From: a virus
Virus record (IMG/VR): IMGVR_UViG_3300027763_000221
Span: 1-25,325 of that record
DNA: 25,325 nt
Direction: 5' to 3' (one strand)
In this document: piece by piece, positions 3,119 to 23,564 of the stretch
Layout of the letters: every line of letters starts with the position of its first letter
Position numbering within the stretch: the first letter of the stretch is position 1
The notes under the pieces: generated by a model
What the model was told of the DNA's origin: nothing
The model's database searches: none
What the model saw: the letters and a program-made list of their open reading frames with translations, nothing else
Translations under genes and position numbers: made by a program

Positions 3119-3646
3119 ATGGCTTCGACTTCAAACTACGTTTTCCCCGCAGAAGGTCTTGACTATCTGCTCGGCATTGTGCCAAAGGGTGGGACTGCCC
3201 CTGCGACTTTGTACTTGGGCTTGTTCACGACTTCGTGGGCGACTATTCAGGGATACGGAATTGCCAACACAAACATTACGTTGAACGGTGGCACGTACCC
3301 CGTGACCGAACTTGCAAGCGCGACGGGCTACGCAACGCGCCCGTCTTTGGCGGCGGCGACTTGGGGCGCGGCGACTGCTGGCACGACTGTTATTGGCGCA
3401 AACACAATCAACGTGCGTCAGTCAACGTACGGTTCTGCAATCACGATCACAAACACAAGTGCGTCGGCGTGGACTGGTATCAACGGAATGTTCATTGCGA
3501 CTAGCGCAACAGTTGGTCAAGCGTCAGGTTCAGGAACAACTGTTCTTTGGTACGCACCATTTAGCGACGGTTCGACTGTCACGCTTGCAGTCAACGACAG
3601 CATTTCAATTACACCTACTTGGCAATCCGCGCCTTACCCCGCGTAA
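3119..3646 (+). CDS. Tail-associated structural protein (Gp80-like phage tail fibre texture)
   Basis: 175 residues, beta-rich, with 'LYLGLFTT' near the N-terminus, 'GGTYPVTEL', 'GYATRPSLAAATWG', and a C-terminal 'LWYAPFSDGSTVTLAVNDSISITPTW'. This order (xxxLGLF, a 'Y-R' strand, then 'W...PL/F..G.tvtvndGDsl.i') is that of small actinophage structural proteins that sit near tail fibre genes. The start seems leaderless (see the -10 box just upstream). The next gene follows after 12 bases. The structural assignment rests on family texture and position; no catalytic motif is visible. Confidence 0.55.
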   Translation: MASTSNYVFPAEGLDYLLGIVPKGGTAPATLYLGLFTTSWATIQGYGIANTNITLNGGTYPVTELASATGYATRPSLAAATWGAATAGTTVIGANTINVRQSTYGSAITITNTSASAWTGINGMFIATSATVGQASGSGTTVLWYAPFSDGSTVTLAVNDSISITPTWQSAPYPA

Positions 3647-7141: not shown

Positions 7142-7288
7142 ATGAAACTTCTTTTTTTGTGTGAACGTTGCAATCAAACTTTTGTTTTGTATCGCGGTGA
7201 CGTTGTAAGTATCTCGTTTAGTGGACTTCCTGAAGTTGTTGCACGTACGCTTGATCACGACTGCAAGACAGAAAGAACAACGACGTGA
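7142..7288 (+). CDS. Zinc-ribbon micro-protein (48 aa)
   Basis: The 48-codon frame begins 'MKLLFLCERCNQTF' (Cys7, Cys10) and ends with 'DHDCK' (His39, Cys41), a plausible CxxC...HxC zinc site. The stop overlaps the next gene's GTG (GTGA), which supports real coupled translation. There is no obvious Shine-Dalgarno; a TACGCT box lies 10 bases before the ATG. Function is unknown; it resembles the many small CxxC proteins elsewhere in this window. Confidence 0.5.
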   Translation: MKLLFLCERCNQTFVLYRGDVVSISFSGLPEVVARTLDHDCKTERTTT

Positions 7289-7785
7289 CACCCGTACCCG
7301 GCACTTTGGTATTCGCCCATTCCAACGGGCTAATGGGACGCGTCATTCGTTTTGGCGAACGCCTGCGCTGGCGTGGCGGGCATTTCTACAATCACGTGGC
7401 AATCGTTGATCGAATCGAAGACGGCGTTGCGTACGTCATTCAGGCTGAAGCGCGTGGAGTGACTGACGACAAAGCACTTCACACAGTCGGCAGGTACACA
7501 CTTGTTGATATGCCGCGACACGTTGACGTTGAAGACGCGTTGCATTTCGCGCGCGAACAGGTAGGCAGTTCGTACGGCTGGCTGACCATTCTTTCAATCG
7601 CGATTGACATTGTTACCCCGTTTTGGTTTGTTGCGTTTCGACGTGGCAACAGTTGGATTTGTTCTGCGCTCGTTGGCGAATCGTTGCGTGCCGGCGGTTG
7701 GGTTCGCAATTTTGCTGACGTGTACTGCGTCACGCCTGCGCAACTGTGGCTTGAAATTCGCGGGCTGATCTACACGAATCCCTAG
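7285..7785 (+). CDS. Permuted papain-fold (YiiX/DUF830-like NlpC/P60) thiol hydrolase
   Basis: 166 residues. It begins 'PGTLVFAHSNGLMGRVIRFGE', then 'YNHVAIVD' (His37), 'VIQAEARGV' (Glu55), and later 'WICSALVGESLRAGG' (Cys126). His then Glu then Cys is the circularly permuted order of YiiX/YaeF-type NlpC/P60 enzymes, whose members act on peptide, amide or lipid ester bonds. A hydrophobic stretch at 97-117 ('WLTILSIAIDIVTPFWFVAF') could pack in the fold or touch membrane. The gene is coupled to the zinc-ribbon micro-protein before it and ends the block before promoter P1. Whether it attacks the wall or a host protein or lipid is open. Confidence 0.7.
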   Translation: MTPVPGTLVFAHSNGLMGRVIRFGERLRWRGGHFYNHVAIVDRIEDGVAYVIQAEARGVTDDKALHTVGRYTLVDMPRHVDVEDALHFAREQVGSSYGWLTILSIAIDIVTPFWFVAFRRGNSWICSALVGESLRAGGWVRNFADVYCVTPAQLWLEIRGLIYTNP

Positions 7786-7826
7786 TTGACCTCGACTTTC
7801 TTCAGTATTTATCGCGTTTTTCGCAC

Positions 7827-7841
7827 TAGAAAACGTTTCTA
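7827..7841 (+). repeat. Inverted repeat TAGAAA-N3-TTTCTA upstream of P1
   Basis: Perfect 6-bp arms separated by ACG, about 16 bases before the P1 palindrome, in the A/T-rich 147-base gap (7786-7932). It could be a regulator site or part of a weak terminator for the hydrolase gene; nothing decides between these. Confidence 0.35.
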
Positions 7842-7856
7842 AATTCTTTTGACAAA

Positions 7857-7893
7857 CGTTCGCTTGACGAACGAAAGCGTGTATGCTGACTCA
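7857..7893 (+). promoter_or_regulatory. P1: palindrome-operator promoter CGTTCG-N5-CGAACG-N8-TATGCT
   Basis: A perfect 17-bp dyad (arms 7857-7862 and 7868-7873) is followed after eight bases by TATGCT (7882-7887) and five bases later by an ATG (7893). With a 17-base spacer the -35 position (TTCGCT, 7859-7864) lies inside the dyad, so a protein bound there would directly block or replace -35 recognition. Two further promoters (12967 and 19024) share the dyad and its exact distance to the -10. It drives the operon starting at 7933. Confidence 0.75.
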
Positions 7894-7913
7894 TGTCGAA
7901 CAAAAGTCCGACA
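7894..7913 (+). promoter_or_regulatory. Leader hairpin TGTCG-N10-CGACA after P1
   Basis: A 5-bp stem with a 10-base loop lies just before the Shine-Dalgarno (AAAAGGGAG) of the 7933 gene. The leader of P2 has the same stem position and loop length with TGTCA/TGACA instead, a compensating change in one pair. An ATG at 7893 opens a 19-codon frame that overlaps the 7933 start and could be a leader peptide. Confidence 0.4.
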
Positions 7914-7932
7914 CTGAAAAGGGAGATTCAAA

Positions 7933-8292
7933 ATGAACGCAGTTATGTTTAGCGAAAGTCACAACACGTTGACAATTCCAACGACAGAAATTGAGCGCGA
8001 CGCGTTGTGGGCCAACTTGGCAATCATTGTCGCGCACGCCAACAACAACGGCGGCAACGCCGCAGGCTGTTCTGCAATTATCCACGCACTTGAGGCAACG
8101 CGCCATGCAACAGTTGATCTTGACGTTGTTCTTTCACGCACAATGTTGCAGTGGGCGTGCAAAGAAGCGCGCCGCTACGTGAAGGTGCGCACCTCATTCG
8201 ACCTAGCCGCCACCGCGGGACACTCTGTTGAGAATCGTATTATCACTTGTTTCAACAACGCAGGTCTTGACGACGAAGGACGTGCGCTCTAA
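7933..8292 (+). CDS. Hypothetical protein, first gene of P1 operon
   Basis: 119 residues from an ATG with the strong Shine-Dalgarno AAAAGGGAG. The protein is mostly helical, with 'RDALWANLAIIVAHANNNGGNAAGCSAIIHALEA' in the first half and a Lys/Arg-containing middle. No catalytic motif, membrane segment or known domain is recognised. As first gene after the regulated P1 promoter it is probably expressed early and strongly; its role is unknown. Confidence 0.65.
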   Translation: MNAVMFSESHNTLTIPTTEIERDALWANLAIIVAHANNNGGNAAGCSAIIHALEATRHATVDLDVVLSRTMLQWACKEARRYVKVRTSFDLAATAGHSVENRIITCFNNAGLDDEGRAL

Positions 8293-8447
8293 TGAACAAG
8301 ACGTTCGACACAATGAACAATCGCGAAAAGTCGTTGCACTGTGCGCGCGTCGGTGACCGTCTGACGCGTATGGGCGACAAAGAAGGCGCAGACCGTTTCT
8401 ACCGGTTCGCCGTCGAATACATTCTTCAAGACAAGGCGGCGAACTAA
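8292..8447 (+). CDS. Hypothetical small charged protein (51 aa)
   Basis: The ATG overlaps the previous stop (TAATG) and the stop overlaps the next ATG in the same way. The 51 residues ('NNREKSLHCARVGDRL', 'GDKEGADRFYRFAVEYIL') form two likely amphipathic helices. The tight two-sided coupling is the main evidence that it is real. No family is recognised. Confidence 0.6.
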   Translation: MNKTFDTMNNREKSLHCARVGDRLTRMGDKEGADRFYRFAVEYILQDKAAN

Positions 8448-8653
8448 TGAACGCCGTTGAAGAAATCAAGTGGTGGAAGATTGGCGCGCGCGAATGGTAC
8501 AGCGATTGCGGCGACTTCGTAATTCAGGATTCGCCAACGGGGTACTTCTTGATTGCGTACGACGAAGACTTTGCACGCCCGTACGTTGTGTGCGACGTAG
8601 CGACAATTGACAAAGCAAAACTGAAGGCGACAATTCTGAAGGCGGGTGAGTAA
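8447..8653 (+). CDS. Hypothetical protein (68 aa)
   Basis: Coupled by TAATG overlaps on both sides. The sequence has 'KWWKIGAREWYSDCGDFVIQDSPTGYFLIAYD', a compact alpha/beta small domain with many aromatics, then a helical Lys-rich end. No zinc pairs, membrane segment or catalytic motif is seen. Function unknown. Confidence 0.6.
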   Translation: MNAVEEIKWWKIGAREWYSDCGDFVIQDSPTGYFLIAYDEDFARPYVVCDVATIDKAKLKATILKAGE

Positions 8654-9087
8654 TGAAGTGCAACTGTCAAACGTTCACGTTGCTTGACGACTACGCGAAC
8701 ACGGTGCGAATGAACAACATTGCACACACGATCAAGTCGTGCTTGCCCGAATTGCCGTACGTGTACTGCACCTGCAGAACGTTCTTGCTTGACGGCGACA
8801 ACAAGTGGATCGAAGACGACAACGGCGTTTTTCACACAGCCGAATCGTGCGTTCACGAACACAGCATTGTGAACAATCTGTTCGACTACACGTGCAGTTG
8901 CGGTCAGTTCTTCCCTGCGAATTTTGCAATGACGCTGACGCTGACTGCTGAAGCGTGGCAACGCGTACGCGCAATGATTGTGTGCGACGTAATGCTTTCG
9001 CCCTACGACGATACTTCAAAGCGACTTGACAGCGTTGTTGACGACATTGACCAACTGATCAACTTTGACGAAAGTGAACTGATATGA
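8653..9087 (+). CDS. Cys-rich hypothetical protein, putative zinc binding
   Basis: 144 residues with three CxC pairs: 'KCNCQTF' at the N-terminus, 'VYCTCRTFLLDG' near 40 and 'DYTCSCGQFF' near 80, plus 'SCVHEH' between the last two. Spacing suggests two repeated half-sites ('Y-C-C-x-F') that could hold zinc. The C-terminal third is acidic and helical. The start overlaps the preceding stop and the TGA overlaps an ATG at 9084 that opens only 11 codons (see the duplication at 9072). Function unknown. Confidence 0.6.
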   Translation: MKCNCQTFTLLDDYANTVRMNNIAHTIKSCLPELPYVYCTCRTFLLDGDNKWIEDDNGVFHTAESCVHEHSIVNNLFDYTCSCGQFFPANFAMTLTLTAEAWQRVRAMIVCDVMLSPYDDTSKRLDSVVDDIDQLINFDESELI

Positions 9088-19854: not shown

Positions 19855-19866
19855 TACGCTTGACGC
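19855..19866 (+). promoter_or_regulatory. Leaderless -10 box TACGCT-N6-GTG
   Basis: TACGCT (19855-19860) is exactly six bases before the GTG at 19867, in the 25-base gap after the previous stop. There is no Shine-Dalgarno. The same hexamer and spacing precede the WhiB gene. Confidence 0.55.
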
Positions 19867-20358
19867 GTGACAGTCATTTGCGCGTACTACGACAGCGACC
19901 ACGCGTACATAGGCGCAGATTCAGGCGCGTTCGATTCCGATTCTGTTGTCATCAGCACGACACAGAAAGTTTGGCGCGTTGACGACACGTTGATTGGCGT
20001 TGCTGGTTCGTTTCGCGTTGTCGAACTTGCACGTCAGTCGAACATTGCTGACCCGCACGAACTTCGTGACTTCTTGCTGGCTGACTACAACACGCGCGCA
20101 AGTCACCCGACAGCGCACGAAGCAACGATTCTGACTGTCAATACGTCAGGCATTCATTATGTCAGCGACGACTTCAGTGTGATCAAAGTTCGTGAGCAGT
20201 ACGGCGCAACAGGCGCAAGCGGACTGATCGCACTTGGCGCGCTGTCTGCGTTGTCTCGCACTGACACTGACCCGCGTTCAATGATTGACGTTGCGTTGAA
20301 AGTCGCGGCACAACACACGTTGTACGCACGCGCGCCGTTCAAGATTCTTCAGACGTAA
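19867..20358 (+). CDS. HslV/proteasome-beta-like Ntn hydrolase
   Basis: 163 residues. After removal of Met1, Thr becomes residue 1; then Asp falls at 17 ('YIGADSG') and Lys at 33 ('TTQKVW'), exactly the T1/D17/K33 catalytic trio of proteasome beta and HslV subunits. Further matches follow the fold: 'TLIGVAGSF' after the lysine, 'GATGASGLIALGAL' for the GSG-x-x-ALGAL turn (Ser117 in T1 numbering), and 'DPRSMIDVALKVAAQHTLYARAPFKIL' for the last helix and strand. The protein needs no propeptide. No HslU or other ATPase is in the window, so it may work alone, pair with a host ATPase, or interfere with the host proteasome. The start is leaderless; the next gene begins directly at its stop. Confidence 0.78.
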   Translation: MTVICAYYDSDHAYIGADSGAFDSDSVVISTTQKVWRVDDTLIGVAGSFRVVELARQSNIADPHELRDFLLADYNTRASHPTAHEATILTVNTSGIHYVSDDFSVIKVREQYGATGASGLIALGALSALSRTDTDPRSMIDVALKVAAQHTLYARAPFKILQT

Positions 20359-20595
20359 ATGCTGTGGTCTTTCGTTCTTGAAGGCGTAGGGCTGTTGGGC
20401 GTATTCATTGCAGGACGCAAGCACTGGCAAGGCTGGGCGATTCTGCTGTTCAACGTAGGGCTGTGGACAACGTACGGGGTTCAATCACGTCAATACGGTT
20501 TCGTTGTAGCCTCACTTGCGTACGCAGTCGTGTACACAAGAAATTTGCTGAAGTGGCGAAGGGACAAAAATGAAGATATCGAACGTTGCAATTGA
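20359..20595 (+). CDS. Small multi-span membrane protein
   Basis: 78 residues with three likely spans: about 3-18 ('WSFVLEGVGLLGVFIA'), 26-41 ('WAILLFNVGLWTTYGV') and 47-61 ('GFVVASLAYAVVYTR'). The end is basic ('NLLKWRRDKN'). 'GRKHWQGW', 'LW--Y' and 'QYGF' recur in actinophage membrane proteins that look like a half of a PnuC-type transporter. It starts directly after the HslV-like gene's stop and overlaps the ParB-like gene by 26 bases. Transport or holin roles are both unproven. Confidence 0.6.
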   Translation: MLWSFVLEGVGLLGVFIAGRKHWQGWAILLFNVGLWTTYGVQSRQYGFVVASLAYAVVYTRNLLKWRRDKNEDIERCN

Positions 20596-21088
20596 CACGA
20601 TCAGCGCACACCCGCAGAACGTCAGACAGGGCGACATAGGCGCAATCGTCACGTCGCTTGAAGCACACGGGCAGTACCGCCCGTTGATCGTACAAAAGTC
20701 AACGGGGTTTATTCTCGCGGGCAATCACACGTGGCGCGCCGCGGCTGTTGTTGGGCTGAAGAAGGTTGACATTGTTGAACTTGACGTTGACGACGACGAA
20801 GCGTTGCGAATCTTGCTTGTGGACAATCGAACGAACGACCTTGCAACGTACGATCAAGACGCGCTGAAGTCACTGCTTGAAGTTCTAGCCCGCACAGAAA
20901 AGCAACTTGAAGGAACAGGGTTCGACCTTGACGATTTAGACAACTTCATTTTCGACGCTGAACGCGAACTTGACTTCAAGCCCGACGACACAGAACAACC
21001 CCGACTTGACGAAGTGACCCCGCTTTCGTGTCCGAATTGCAGTTTTCAATGGCGCAAGGGCAAGGGCGACGCAATCATTCCGCTATGA
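20570..21088 (+). CDS. ParB-like nuclease-domain protein with C-terminal CPxC
   Basis: 172 residues from an ATG with GAAGGGAC upstream. The ParB/Srx-type domain spans about 1-100: 'HPQNVRQGDIGAIVTSLEAHGQYRPLIVQ', 'GFILAGNHTWRAAAVVGL' (in place of the ParB GERR box) and 'DEALRILLVDNRTNDLATYD'. An acidic linker leads to 'LSCPNCSFQWRKGKGD', a half zinc-ribbon. Such phage ParB-like proteins are often next to or fused with DNA methylases, suggesting a role in targeting DNA modification; some have nuclease activity. The stop overlaps the Mom-like gene (ATGA), so the two are made together. Confidence 0.78.
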   Translation: MKISNVAIDTISAHPQNVRQGDIGAIVTSLEAHGQYRPLIVQKSTGFILAGNHTWRAAAVVGLKKVDIVELDVDDDEALRILLVDNRTNDLATYDQDALKSLLEVLARTEKQLEGTGFDLDDLDNFIFDAERELDFKPDDTEQPRLDEVTPLSCPNCSFQWRKGKGDAIIPL

Positions 21089-21699
21089 CAGAATTGAAGG
21101 TTGCACTGTGCGCGCACGACGCGGCGAAACACGCAGTAATGAATTGGCACTATTCGAAAGCAATGCCTATCGGCAAACTTGTTCGACACGGCGTTTGGGA
21201 AGACGACAAATTCATAGGCGTTGTTCTGTATGGGCGTGGAGCGTCACCCGAACTTGGCGCGCCCTATGGCTTGAATCAAACTGAAGTGTGCGAACTGGTA
21301 CGTGTTGCATTGAACAAGCACGTGTCGCCCGTGTCGCAGGTAATGGCACGATCGTTGGAACTGCTGAAGCAAACGAACACGAACTTGCGACTTGTGGTTT
21401 CGTTCGCCGACCCGAATCAAGGTCATCACGGCGGCATTTATCAAGCAACGAATTGGGTCTATTGCGGGCGTTCAGGTGAAGCCGAAGAAGTTTTGTTCAA
21501 GGGAAAGTGGACTCACTCACGTATGTTGCGCCCTACGGGTTGGGGAACAGTGCCGGAGATAGCGCGCCTATCCCCCGATCAACAGAAAGCACTGCCCCGT
21601 CGAAAGCGTGTTGGGAAGTTCAGATACCTAATGCCACTGGACAAACAGATACGGCGACGTGTCGAACCGCTACGATTGCCGTACCCCTCTGCGGTCTAG
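21085..21699 (+). CDS. Mom-like DNA adenine modification protein (GNAT fold)
   Basis: 204 residues from the ATG at 21085; the frame extends to 21028, but that part overlaps the ParB-like gene. The sequence follows the Mu Mom family: 'AVMNWHYSKAMPIGKLVRHGVWEDDKFIGVVLYGRGA', 'EVCELVRVALNKHVSPVSQVMARSLELLK', 'LRLVVSFADPNQGHHGGIYQATNWVYCG', with the charged 'GRSGEAEEVLFKGKWTH' after it. Mu Mom converts adenine in DNA to N6-(carbamoylmethyl)adenine, protecting against restriction. The C-terminus is basic and may contact DNA. The pair with the ParB-like gene is coupled by a 4-base overlap. An ordinary acetyltransferase is the alternative, but the 'ELVRVAL...SFADP--GH-G-IYQA-NW' run favours Mom. Confidence 0.75.
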   Translation: MTELKVALCAHDAAKHAVMNWHYSKAMPIGKLVRHGVWEDDKFIGVVLYGRGASPELGAPYGLNQTEVCELVRVALNKHVSPVSQVMARSLELLKQTNTNLRLVVSFADPNQGHHGGIYQATNWVYCGRSGEAEEVLFKGKWTHSRMLRPTGWGTVPEIARLSPDQQKALPRRKRVGKFRYLMPLDKQIRRRVEPLRLPYPSAV

Positions 21700-21781: not shown

Positions 21782-22276
21782 ATGGGCGGTGTACAGAAAA
21801 ATCAGTTCGACGAAATAGAGACAGTCGAAAAAGAACGACAGGTCATTGAACTACGTCGTGCGGGCTACACGTTTGACGACATTGCAAAGGCAGTTGGTTT
21901 CGCGTACTCATCAGGCGCGCACCAAGCGTACCGACGCGCACTGAAGCGCACGTTGATCGAAGCAGGCGTTGAAGAAGCACGCGAACAAGAACTTGATCGT
22001 CTTGACAGAATGCAACGCGCACTATGGACGCAAGCATTGTCAGGTGACACGAAAGCCGCACTTGCCGTTCTTCGATTTATGGAACAGCGCGCAAAACTTC
22101 TTGGGCTGTACGCGCCAACACGAATCACAGCAGACGTGACGACTTATGAAGGGGGCGGGGACATTGACAGTGAAGTCAGACGACTTGCACAACTTCTCGC
22201 CAACGCAGAAAACAGCGGCGGCGAGAGTGGTGTGGGAATACAAAGAAGCACGACCGAACCAACTTCCCCCGACTGA
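21782..22276 (+). CDS. terS: Terminase small subunit
   Basis: 164 residues. An N-terminal helix-turn-helix occupies about 18-58 ('VIELRRAGYTFDDIAKAVGFAYSSGAHQAYRRALKR'), followed by a charged helix for oligomerisation ('EEAREQELDRLDRMQRALWTQALSGDTKAALAVLRFMEQRAKLLGLYAP'), the standard layout of phage small terminases that recognise pac/cos DNA and feed it to TerL. The Gly/Ser-rich tail overlaps the start of terL by more than 100 bases in another frame. The start is set by the TAGCCT-N6-ATG box. Confidence 0.8.
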   Translation: MGGVQKNQFDEIETVEKERQVIELRRAGYTFDDIAKAVGFAYSSGAHQAYRRALKRTLIEAGVEEAREQELDRLDRMQRALWTQALSGDTKAALAVLRFMEQRAKLLGLYAPTRITADVTTYEGGGDIDSEVRRLAQLLANAENSGGESGVGIQRSTTEPTSPD

Positions 22277-23564
22277 AGATTGGAAGATTTGGTTGATTCA
22301 ATCGGGACGTGGTTGGGGTAAGACACGCACTGGTGCTGAATGGCTGTTGTACGAAGCACTGAAATATGACGCGACACGTTGGGCGATTGTCGCACCGACG
22401 TTCAGTGACGCACGTGACACGTGTGCTGAAGGTGATTCAGGCATTGTCGCAATCGCACAGCGATACGGCGTACTGAAGACGTGGAACAGGTCGCTTGGTG
22501 AGATCAGATTGACAAACGGCAGTCGAATCAAACTGTTTGGTGCTGAAGAACCAAATCGCTTGCGCGGTCCACAGTTTCACGGCGCGTGGTGTGACGAACT
22601 TTCGTCTTGGCGGTACGCCGATACTTGGGATCAGTTGCAGTTTGGTCTTCGTCTTGGACGTGAATCGGGAATCAAACCGCGCACTGTTGTCACGACTACG
22701 CCAAAGCCGACGCGCTTGTTTCGATCACTGCTGACGCGCGACGACGTACACGTGACACGTGGCAGTACGCGAGACAACGAAGCGAACCTATCTGAAGACT
22801 TCGTTCGCGAGATAGTCAACAAGTACGGCAACACACGTCTAGGTCGTCAGGAGATTGACGGCGAACTACTTGAAGACACGCCCGGCGCACTGTGGTCGTA
22901 CGAAATGATTGAACGATCACGCATTGAAGTTGCGCCCGATATGCAACGCATTGTTGTTGCTGTTGACCCCGCCGCGACTTCAACTGAACAGGCAGACGAA
23001 ACGGGCATTGTCGTTGTCGGTCTTGGCGTTGACGGGCGCGGGTACGTGCTTGCAGACAGAACTTGCAAACTGTCACCGAACGGTTGGGCGCGACGTGTCG
23101 TTGAAACGTACGACGAATTCAACGCTGACCGTGTTGTTGGTGAAACTAATCAGGGCGGCGAAATGATTGAATCGCTGATACGTCAGGTACGTCCAACAAT
23201 CCCGTATCGCGGTGTGGTCGCACGTATCGGCAAACGCTTGCGTGCTGAACCCATTTCGTCACTGTACGAACAAAGCCGTGTGTCGCACGTCGGTACGTTT
23301 CTCGAACTAGAAACGCAAATGACTTCGTGGGTAGAGAAAGAAAGCGACTTCAGTCCCGACAGACTTGACGCACTTGTTCACGCGTTGACTGAACTGAACA
23401 TTGGTCGTGGCGGTGGTGCGGCTGACAGATTCTTTGAATCACTGTCGCCGGAGTGTCCGCAGTGCGGTGAGCGCAACACCTACGACACAGTTGTTTGCGC
23501 GTACTGCAACGCTGTTTTGATCGAACAGAACACAGTTTCAAAACTTCCGCAGTTGGGGTATTAG
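22146..23564 (+). CDS. terL: Terminase large subunit with C-terminal zinc ribbon
   Basis: About 472 residues. ATPase half: Walker A 'SGRGWGKT' (53-60), Walker B 'GAWCDEL' (Asp150, Glu151), coupling motif 'VTTTPKPT' near 181. Nuclease half (RNase H-like): 'VAVDPAATS' (Asp273), 'VVGETNQGGEM' (Glu332) and 'SPDRLDALVHAL' (Asp404/Asp407). It packages and cuts DNA at the portal. After the nuclease comes an unusual extension with 'CPQCGERNTYDTVVCAYC', a complete CxxCG...CxxC zinc ribbon. The exact start is uncertain: ATG 22146 has no Shine-Dalgarno, while TTG 22164 and GTG 22170 follow AAGGGGG or GGGGA. All choices overlap terS. Confidence 0.92.
   Translation: MKGAGTLTVKSDDLHNFSPTQKTAAARVVWEYKEARPNQLPPTEDWKIWLIQSGRGWGKTRTGAEWLLYEALKYDATRWAIVAPTFSDARDTCAEGDSGIVAIAQRYGVLKTWNRSLGEIRLTNGSRIKLFGAEEPNRLRGPQFHGAWCDELSSWRYADTWDQLQFGLRLGRESGIKPRTVVTTTPKPTRLFRSLLTRDDVHVTRGSTRDNEANLSEDFVREIVNKYGNTRLGRQEIDGELLEDTPGALWSYEMIERSRIEVAPDMQRIVVAVDPAATSTEQADETGIVVVGLGVDGRGYVLADRTCKLSPNGWARRVVETYDEFNADRVVGETNQGGEMIESLIRQVRPTIPYRGVVARIGKRLRAEPISSLYEQSRVSHVGTFLELETQMTSWVEKESDFSPDRLDALVHALTELNIGRGGGAADRFFESLSPECPQCGERNTYDTVVCAYCNAVLIEQNTVSKLPQLGY

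Follow-up and report, generated by a model that had tools for sequence, protein, structure and literature searches.

A proteasome-like hydrolase gene in a freshwater phage

A gene of a freshwater phage does indeed encode a small enzyme of the proteasome-like kind, in which the catalytic residues are all retained, and the product is a new member of an already described, poorly understood phage family. Its identity as a proteasome-like hydrolase is close to certain. The gene lies in a stretch of 25,325 nucleotides of viral DNA (IMG/VR record IMGVR_UViG_3300027763_000221; hereafter the window), in which it has the following features, Asp17 and Lys33 being numbered with the Thr directly after Met as residue 1.

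19867–20358, + strand: proteasome-like (HslV-family) Ntn hydrolase gene, GTG start, 163 aa
19870–19872, + strand: codon of Thr1, the predicted nucleophile, after the initiator Met and without a propeptide (sequence; invariant in the 44-sequence alignment)
19918–19920, + strand: codon of Asp17 (sequence; invariant in the 44-sequence alignment A4)
19966–19968, + strand: codon of Lys33 (sequence; invariant in the 44-sequence alignment A4)
20005–20007, + strand: codon of Gly, residue 46, candidate equivalent of the oxyanion-hole Gly47 (invariant in the 13-sequence alignment A2)
20212–20244, + strand: GASG-LI-ALGAL turn leading into helix 3, residues 116–126 (sequence, model)

The open reading frame spans exactly the coordinates given in an initial annotation of this DNA, which had also placed Thr directly after Met. 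Its start is fixed by an in-frame TGA at 19861–19863, one codon 5′ of the GTG at 19867, which leaves this GTG as the only plausible start and thus puts Thr immediately behind the initiator Met. Across 44 divergent sequences, drawn from the window and from IMG/VR loci and aligned, no residue is invariant apart from Met1, Thr1, Asp17, Lys33 and a single Ala, which makes five such columns. The T1/D17/K33 active site proposed in the initial annotation is therefore present and retained in all 44 sequences. The GASG-x-x-ALGAL turn that it had pointed out is also present, at residues 116–126, where positions 116, 118, 122 and 124 are at least 90% conserved in the same alignment. Gly46 fits the oxyanion-hole Gly47 when matched by eye, with a loop one residue shorter. 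Relatives with a complete start begin with M-T, and so lack a propeptide.

Family assignment and predicted fold

A single-sequence search with the hydrolase gave no significant match among viral contigs and isolate phages, and an alignment was required to find relatives. The PHROG 1040 profile ("peptidase HslV family") matches residues 1–162 (E = 2.1e-14) as well as 13 of the 13 members of alignment A2, while a profile made from 50-odd relatives, leaving out the window hydrolase and its nearest relative, picks the hydrolase alone among 282 reading frames of the window (E = 3.9e-30); both results lie well outside chance expectation. The Pfam Proteasome model (PF00227) scores it at 15.9 bits, below the 22.4-bit gathering cut-off; at E ≤ 0.01 this model matches only 8 of the 44 family members and is thus insensitive to the phage HslV-family group. 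The NCBIfam HslV equivalog cut-offs are missed as well (26.5 versus 137 bits and 23.3 versus 157.75 bits). About 200 sequenced phages carry relatives, some of them annotated as "proteasome subunit" or "protease," and the hosts of such phages include E. coli, Salmonella, Vibrio and Geobacillus.

An AlphaFold2 model, run on the 44-sequence alignment (pLDDT 95.4, pTM 0.90), displays the four-layer alpha-beta-beta-alpha fold of proteasome beta subunits, with two short helices between strands (residues 49–58 and 63–76). Comparison of the model with the PDB returned 1,249 matches at E ≤ 0.001, the best being T. maritima HslV (TM 0.80) and BPH (TM 0.82), with proteasome beta subunits, archaeal ones among them, coming after these. 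HslV (1.6e-13) and then BPH likewise headed the list when PDB sequences were searched with a profile. The structure comparison proposed at the outset as a check thus gave a confident HslV/proteasome-beta fold, of the Ntn hydrolase type.

With the PHROG 1040 peptidases of tailed phages, examples of which come from Geobacillus virus E3 (gp65), Psychrobacter phage D'Alembert (DAL_45), T5-like Salmonella phages and the jumbo phage 121Q, the hydrolase shares its profile family, M-T start, triad, lack of an AAA+ partner and phage context. It is, however, only 25–28% identical to the members from isolate phages, groups with proteins of other uncultivated phages in a separate clade of good support, and appears to be expressed from a leaderless promoter instead of by way of a Shine-Dalgarno sequence. 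Fuchs, Alva and Lupas described PPH and AAH in 2021 as phage-borne HslV/BPH-like proteasome homologs with no function assigned (PMC8665760). Like the hydrolase described here, these Group I (HslV/BPH-like) homologs of tailed phages are compact and have neither propeptide nor ATPase. PPH measures ~140 aa and lacks helix H2, whereas the window hydrolase has 163 aa and, in the model, seems to retain a pair of short helices at that place, and for this reason we do not file it as a PPH; the 141-aa CcrColossus protein, a member of the same PHROG, fits the published PPH length.

BPH (PDB 5OVS, 5OVU) resembles the hydrolase in fold, in the lack of a propeptide and in having no known unfoldase, but it is bacterial rather than phage-borne and only ~17–19% identical, and its ring has been shown, whereas a ring of the window hydrolase is putative. 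HslV (PDB 1M4Y) has the same fold and is the best profile match among solved structures, and differs in that the hydrolase lies far below the HslV equivalog cut-offs and has no HslU gene beside it in the fragmentary window record. The 20S beta subunit PrcB is set apart by its propeptide, since Thr here directly follows Met, and a search of the window record for a partner alpha subunit found no proteasome-family match at E ≤ 0.001.

Helices 1 and 2 carry ring contacts in the proteasome, and their shortness in the model favors an alternative in which the hydrolase would be no degradative chamber but a monomer or small oligomer that, with high specificity, processes or transpeptidates a single protein of the phage or host. 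Connectase offers a precedent, as it has a proteasome-like fold and the same triad and yet is a monomeric ligase (PMC8665760), and the inertness of BPH on generic substrates (PMC5777263) is also consistent with such specificity. We nevertheless regard this alternative as possible but rather unlikely: the model lacks the two-helix S3/S4 insertion of connectase, the nearest folds are those of the ring formers HslV and BPH, and no conserved candidate substrate gene is found at the hydrolase locus across distant relatives.

Phage lineage, synteny and selection

Related phages were gathered with the terminase as bait, and three genes of the window matter here.

22146–23564, + strand: terminase large subunit, bait for the related phage lineage
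20570–21088, + strand: ParB-like protein, conserved downstream neighbor in this lineage
20359–20595, + strand: PnuC-like small membrane protein, 78 aa, phrog_2421, adjacent gene

The hydrolase gene was found in 24 of 80 contigs related by terminase; of the 26 terminase relatives whose contigs extend 5.3 kb or more upstream of terL, 15 carry it, in the same place. The gene order of the lineage runs RecE-like exonuclease, hydrolase, ParB, TerS, TerL, with insertions between. In the tree, the window hydrolase groups with that of contig L004 (support 100/99), and this pair next joins the lineage's other copies (98/89), with the exception of the long-branched L214. Values of dN/dS among the relatives range from 0.03 to 0.19, with 0.44 for one near-identical pair, a poor estimate. 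These comparisons of sequences indicate that the gene is inherited with its neighbors in an uncultivated phage lineage, under purifying selection. The low identity to named families, with the Pfam Proteasome match below cut-off, might suggest a functionless remnant, decaying or arisen by chance, but the intact triad, the purifying selection and the conserved synteny all contradict this, and we give it practically no credence; the view of the initial annotation that this is not a decayed copy is borne out by the same evidence.

Neither neighboring gene emerged as a partner. ParB adjoins the hydrolase gene in most of the lineage and is absent beside it in distant relatives, so the arrangement reflects local synteny. 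The PnuC-like protein, whose Pfam NMN_transporter match (5.5e-4) is below cut-off, is widespread in phage contigs, with at least 574 matches, and in several of these contigs its gene lies beside that of the hydrolase, before or after it. The hydrolase is present in only 6 of 80 loci of PnuC-like relatives, so this association is weak at most and the protein is not an obligate partner.

The window also encodes a Mom-like DNA modification protein (21028–21699, + strand; Pfam Mom 4e-48), which is shared with a few relatives in the lineage (L154, L179) and not with most of those examined.

A probable leaderless promoter and the likely host

No Shine-Dalgarno sequence precedes the hydrolase GTG at 19867. 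A different signal stands there.

19855–19860, + strand: TACGCT, a TANNNT −10-like box 6 nt before the GTG, probable leaderless promoter

A TANNNT box at a spacing of exactly 6 precedes 7 of the 13 hydrolase genes of the lineage (P about 5e-13, a value that treats lineage members as independent, which is true only in part). Among distant hydrolase relatives it occurs at this spacing in only 1 of 42, and Shine-Dalgarno-like motifs are found in 32 of the 42. Within the window, TANNNT stands at spacing 6 before 4 of 58 candidate starts, with only two matches over all other spacings from 0 to 19. In the terminase relatives the counts are 22 at spacing 6 and 17 at spacing 7, as against 1–4 at spacings 3–5 and 8–10; contigs found through Mom have no TANNNT peak at those spacings. 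In published surveys the first T of TANNNT lies ~12 bp ahead of the start in leaderless genes, which are most frequent in Actinobacteria and Deinococcus-Thermus (PMC3160421; PMC3898074). Together with these surveys, the comparison across related genes supports the leaderless promoter that the initial annotation had ascribed to the gene, and the signature suggests that an actinobacterial host is plausible and indeed fairly likely. As of 2021, no actinobacterial phage with an AAH was known (PMC8665760).

The signature itself is lineage-wide: boxes 6–7 nt before starts are seen in the window at 3119, 11899, 19867 and 21782 (all + strand) and in contigs L137–L216. It should be useful for inferring the hosts of these uncultivated phages.

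The terminase gave a more mixed picture. Its best matches in bacterial genomes (45–53% identity) are mostly to alphaproteobacterial prophages, and one actinomycete MAG contig (L229, 50%) carries ParB-methylase, TerS and TerL in order, so that this prophage search yielded no firm or direct host link; the hydrolase was found in these loci as a single weak match (L220). The closest isolate-phage terminases, 48% for a Brevundimonas phage and then those of Microcystis and Arthrobacter phages, are not decisive for the host.

20S proteasomes are common in actinobacteria, and the hydrolase shares its fold with proteasome beta subunits; if the host is an actinobacterium, the protein could conceivably act as a decoy subunit, joining the host's 20S proteasome or HslV during assembly and poisoning it. 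The initial annotation had listed proteasome poisoning as an option, which we now consider very unlikely, because the triad, which a structural poison would not need, is invariant in 44 relatives, and because relatives infect E. coli, Salmonella, Vibrio and Geobacillus, hosts that have no 20S proteasome. Sequence and fold are also nearer to HslV/BPH than to actinobacterial PrcB.

Absence of a phage-encoded ATPase partner

HslU (TIGR00390) was found above cut-off in none of 35 hydrolase-carrying records, including those of 247–369 kb, in a search whose control was positive. An AAA_2 ATPase above cut-off was present in only 1 of the 35, as a Clp-like protein, and we accordingly discarded HslU or another Clp-type ATPase as a partner. 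The 25.3-kb window record, a fragment of a phage, has no HslU or AAA_2 match; an ATPase gene could lie in the part of the phage beyond it. The phage-borne family was described in 2021 as being without AAA+ partners (PMC8665760), and none was found for BPH either (PMC5777263). Taken together with the published survey, the lack of HslU in all 35 records makes the missing ATPase a trait of the family, not a peculiarity of this phage. The initial annotation was thus right that no ATPase accompanies the gene in this record, but not in treating this as a distinctive feature; the search for an ATPase, which it had suggested for the rest of the genome, turned up no HslU in the 35 records or in the window.

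A ring might still draw on a host AAA+ unfoldase (HslU, ClpX or ClpC, or Mpa/ARC) to act on host or phage proteins. HslV, the closest structural relative, works in this way, and phage records without HslU would make a host unfoldase necessary. This arrangement seems improbable to us, as the hosts of the phages that carry this family differ greatly in their unfoldases, and AAA+ co-occurrence is unreported in the literature (PMC8665760).

Proposed mode of action

We moderately favor the view that the product is a threonine hydrolase, made without a propeptide and independent of any ATPase, whose subunits assemble by themselves into a ring like BPH. Transcription from the TANNNT −10 box would start at or next to the GTG, giving a leaderless mRNA. 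Methionine aminopeptidase removes Met before a small residue such as Thr, and the host enzyme would in this way expose Thr1 without any propeptide. Subunits would then pack via helices 1–4 to form a closed ring, resembling most closely the particle of BPH or HslV. In this ring Thr1, with Asp17 and Lys33, may hydrolyze peptides, unfolded proteins or specific phage or host proteins that reach the chamber, and no AAA+ partner of its own would be needed. BPH, although it forms its particle and binds epoxomicin, is inert on all standard substrates tested (PMC5777263), making a narrow substrate range likely for the window hydrolase as well; to call it a working peptidase in the ordinary sense, as the initial annotation did, may be wrong. 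Far more tentatively, we suggest that the hydrolase could represent a distinct subfamily, expressed from leaderless mRNAs and conserved in an uncultivated lineage of phages that are probably actinobacterial, that serves as a dedicated ATPase-free protease or processing enzyme for one specific target. In that case, a proteasome-like enzyme would for the first time have a defined part in infection by a phage.

The mere existence of a proteasome-like gene in a phage is not surprising, and the question of its function concerns the whole family: we found no paper giving a function to any of the phage-borne proteasome homologs described in 2021, and sequence alone does not advance the answer. This lineage provides a family member that is compact, conserved, easy to express and found at a clear position in the genome, with which it becomes testable why a phage has a proteasome-like enzyme and whether an unfoldase is needed.

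Other observations

The terminase large subunit has a zinc-ribbon-like C-terminal segment (residues about 436–458), whose cysteines 437, 440, 451 and 454 are invariant in seven relatives (alignment A3). In contig L214, the terminase match region (7740–9071) contains an in-frame stop on translation, which may mean that the gene is broken, that the sequence has an error or just that the coordinates end there. Elsewhere in the window, the reading frame at 7285–7785 (+ strand) matches phrog_1128, "enoyl-CoA hydratase/carnithine racemase-like" (8e-14), which is classed among the auxiliary metabolic and host-takeover genes.
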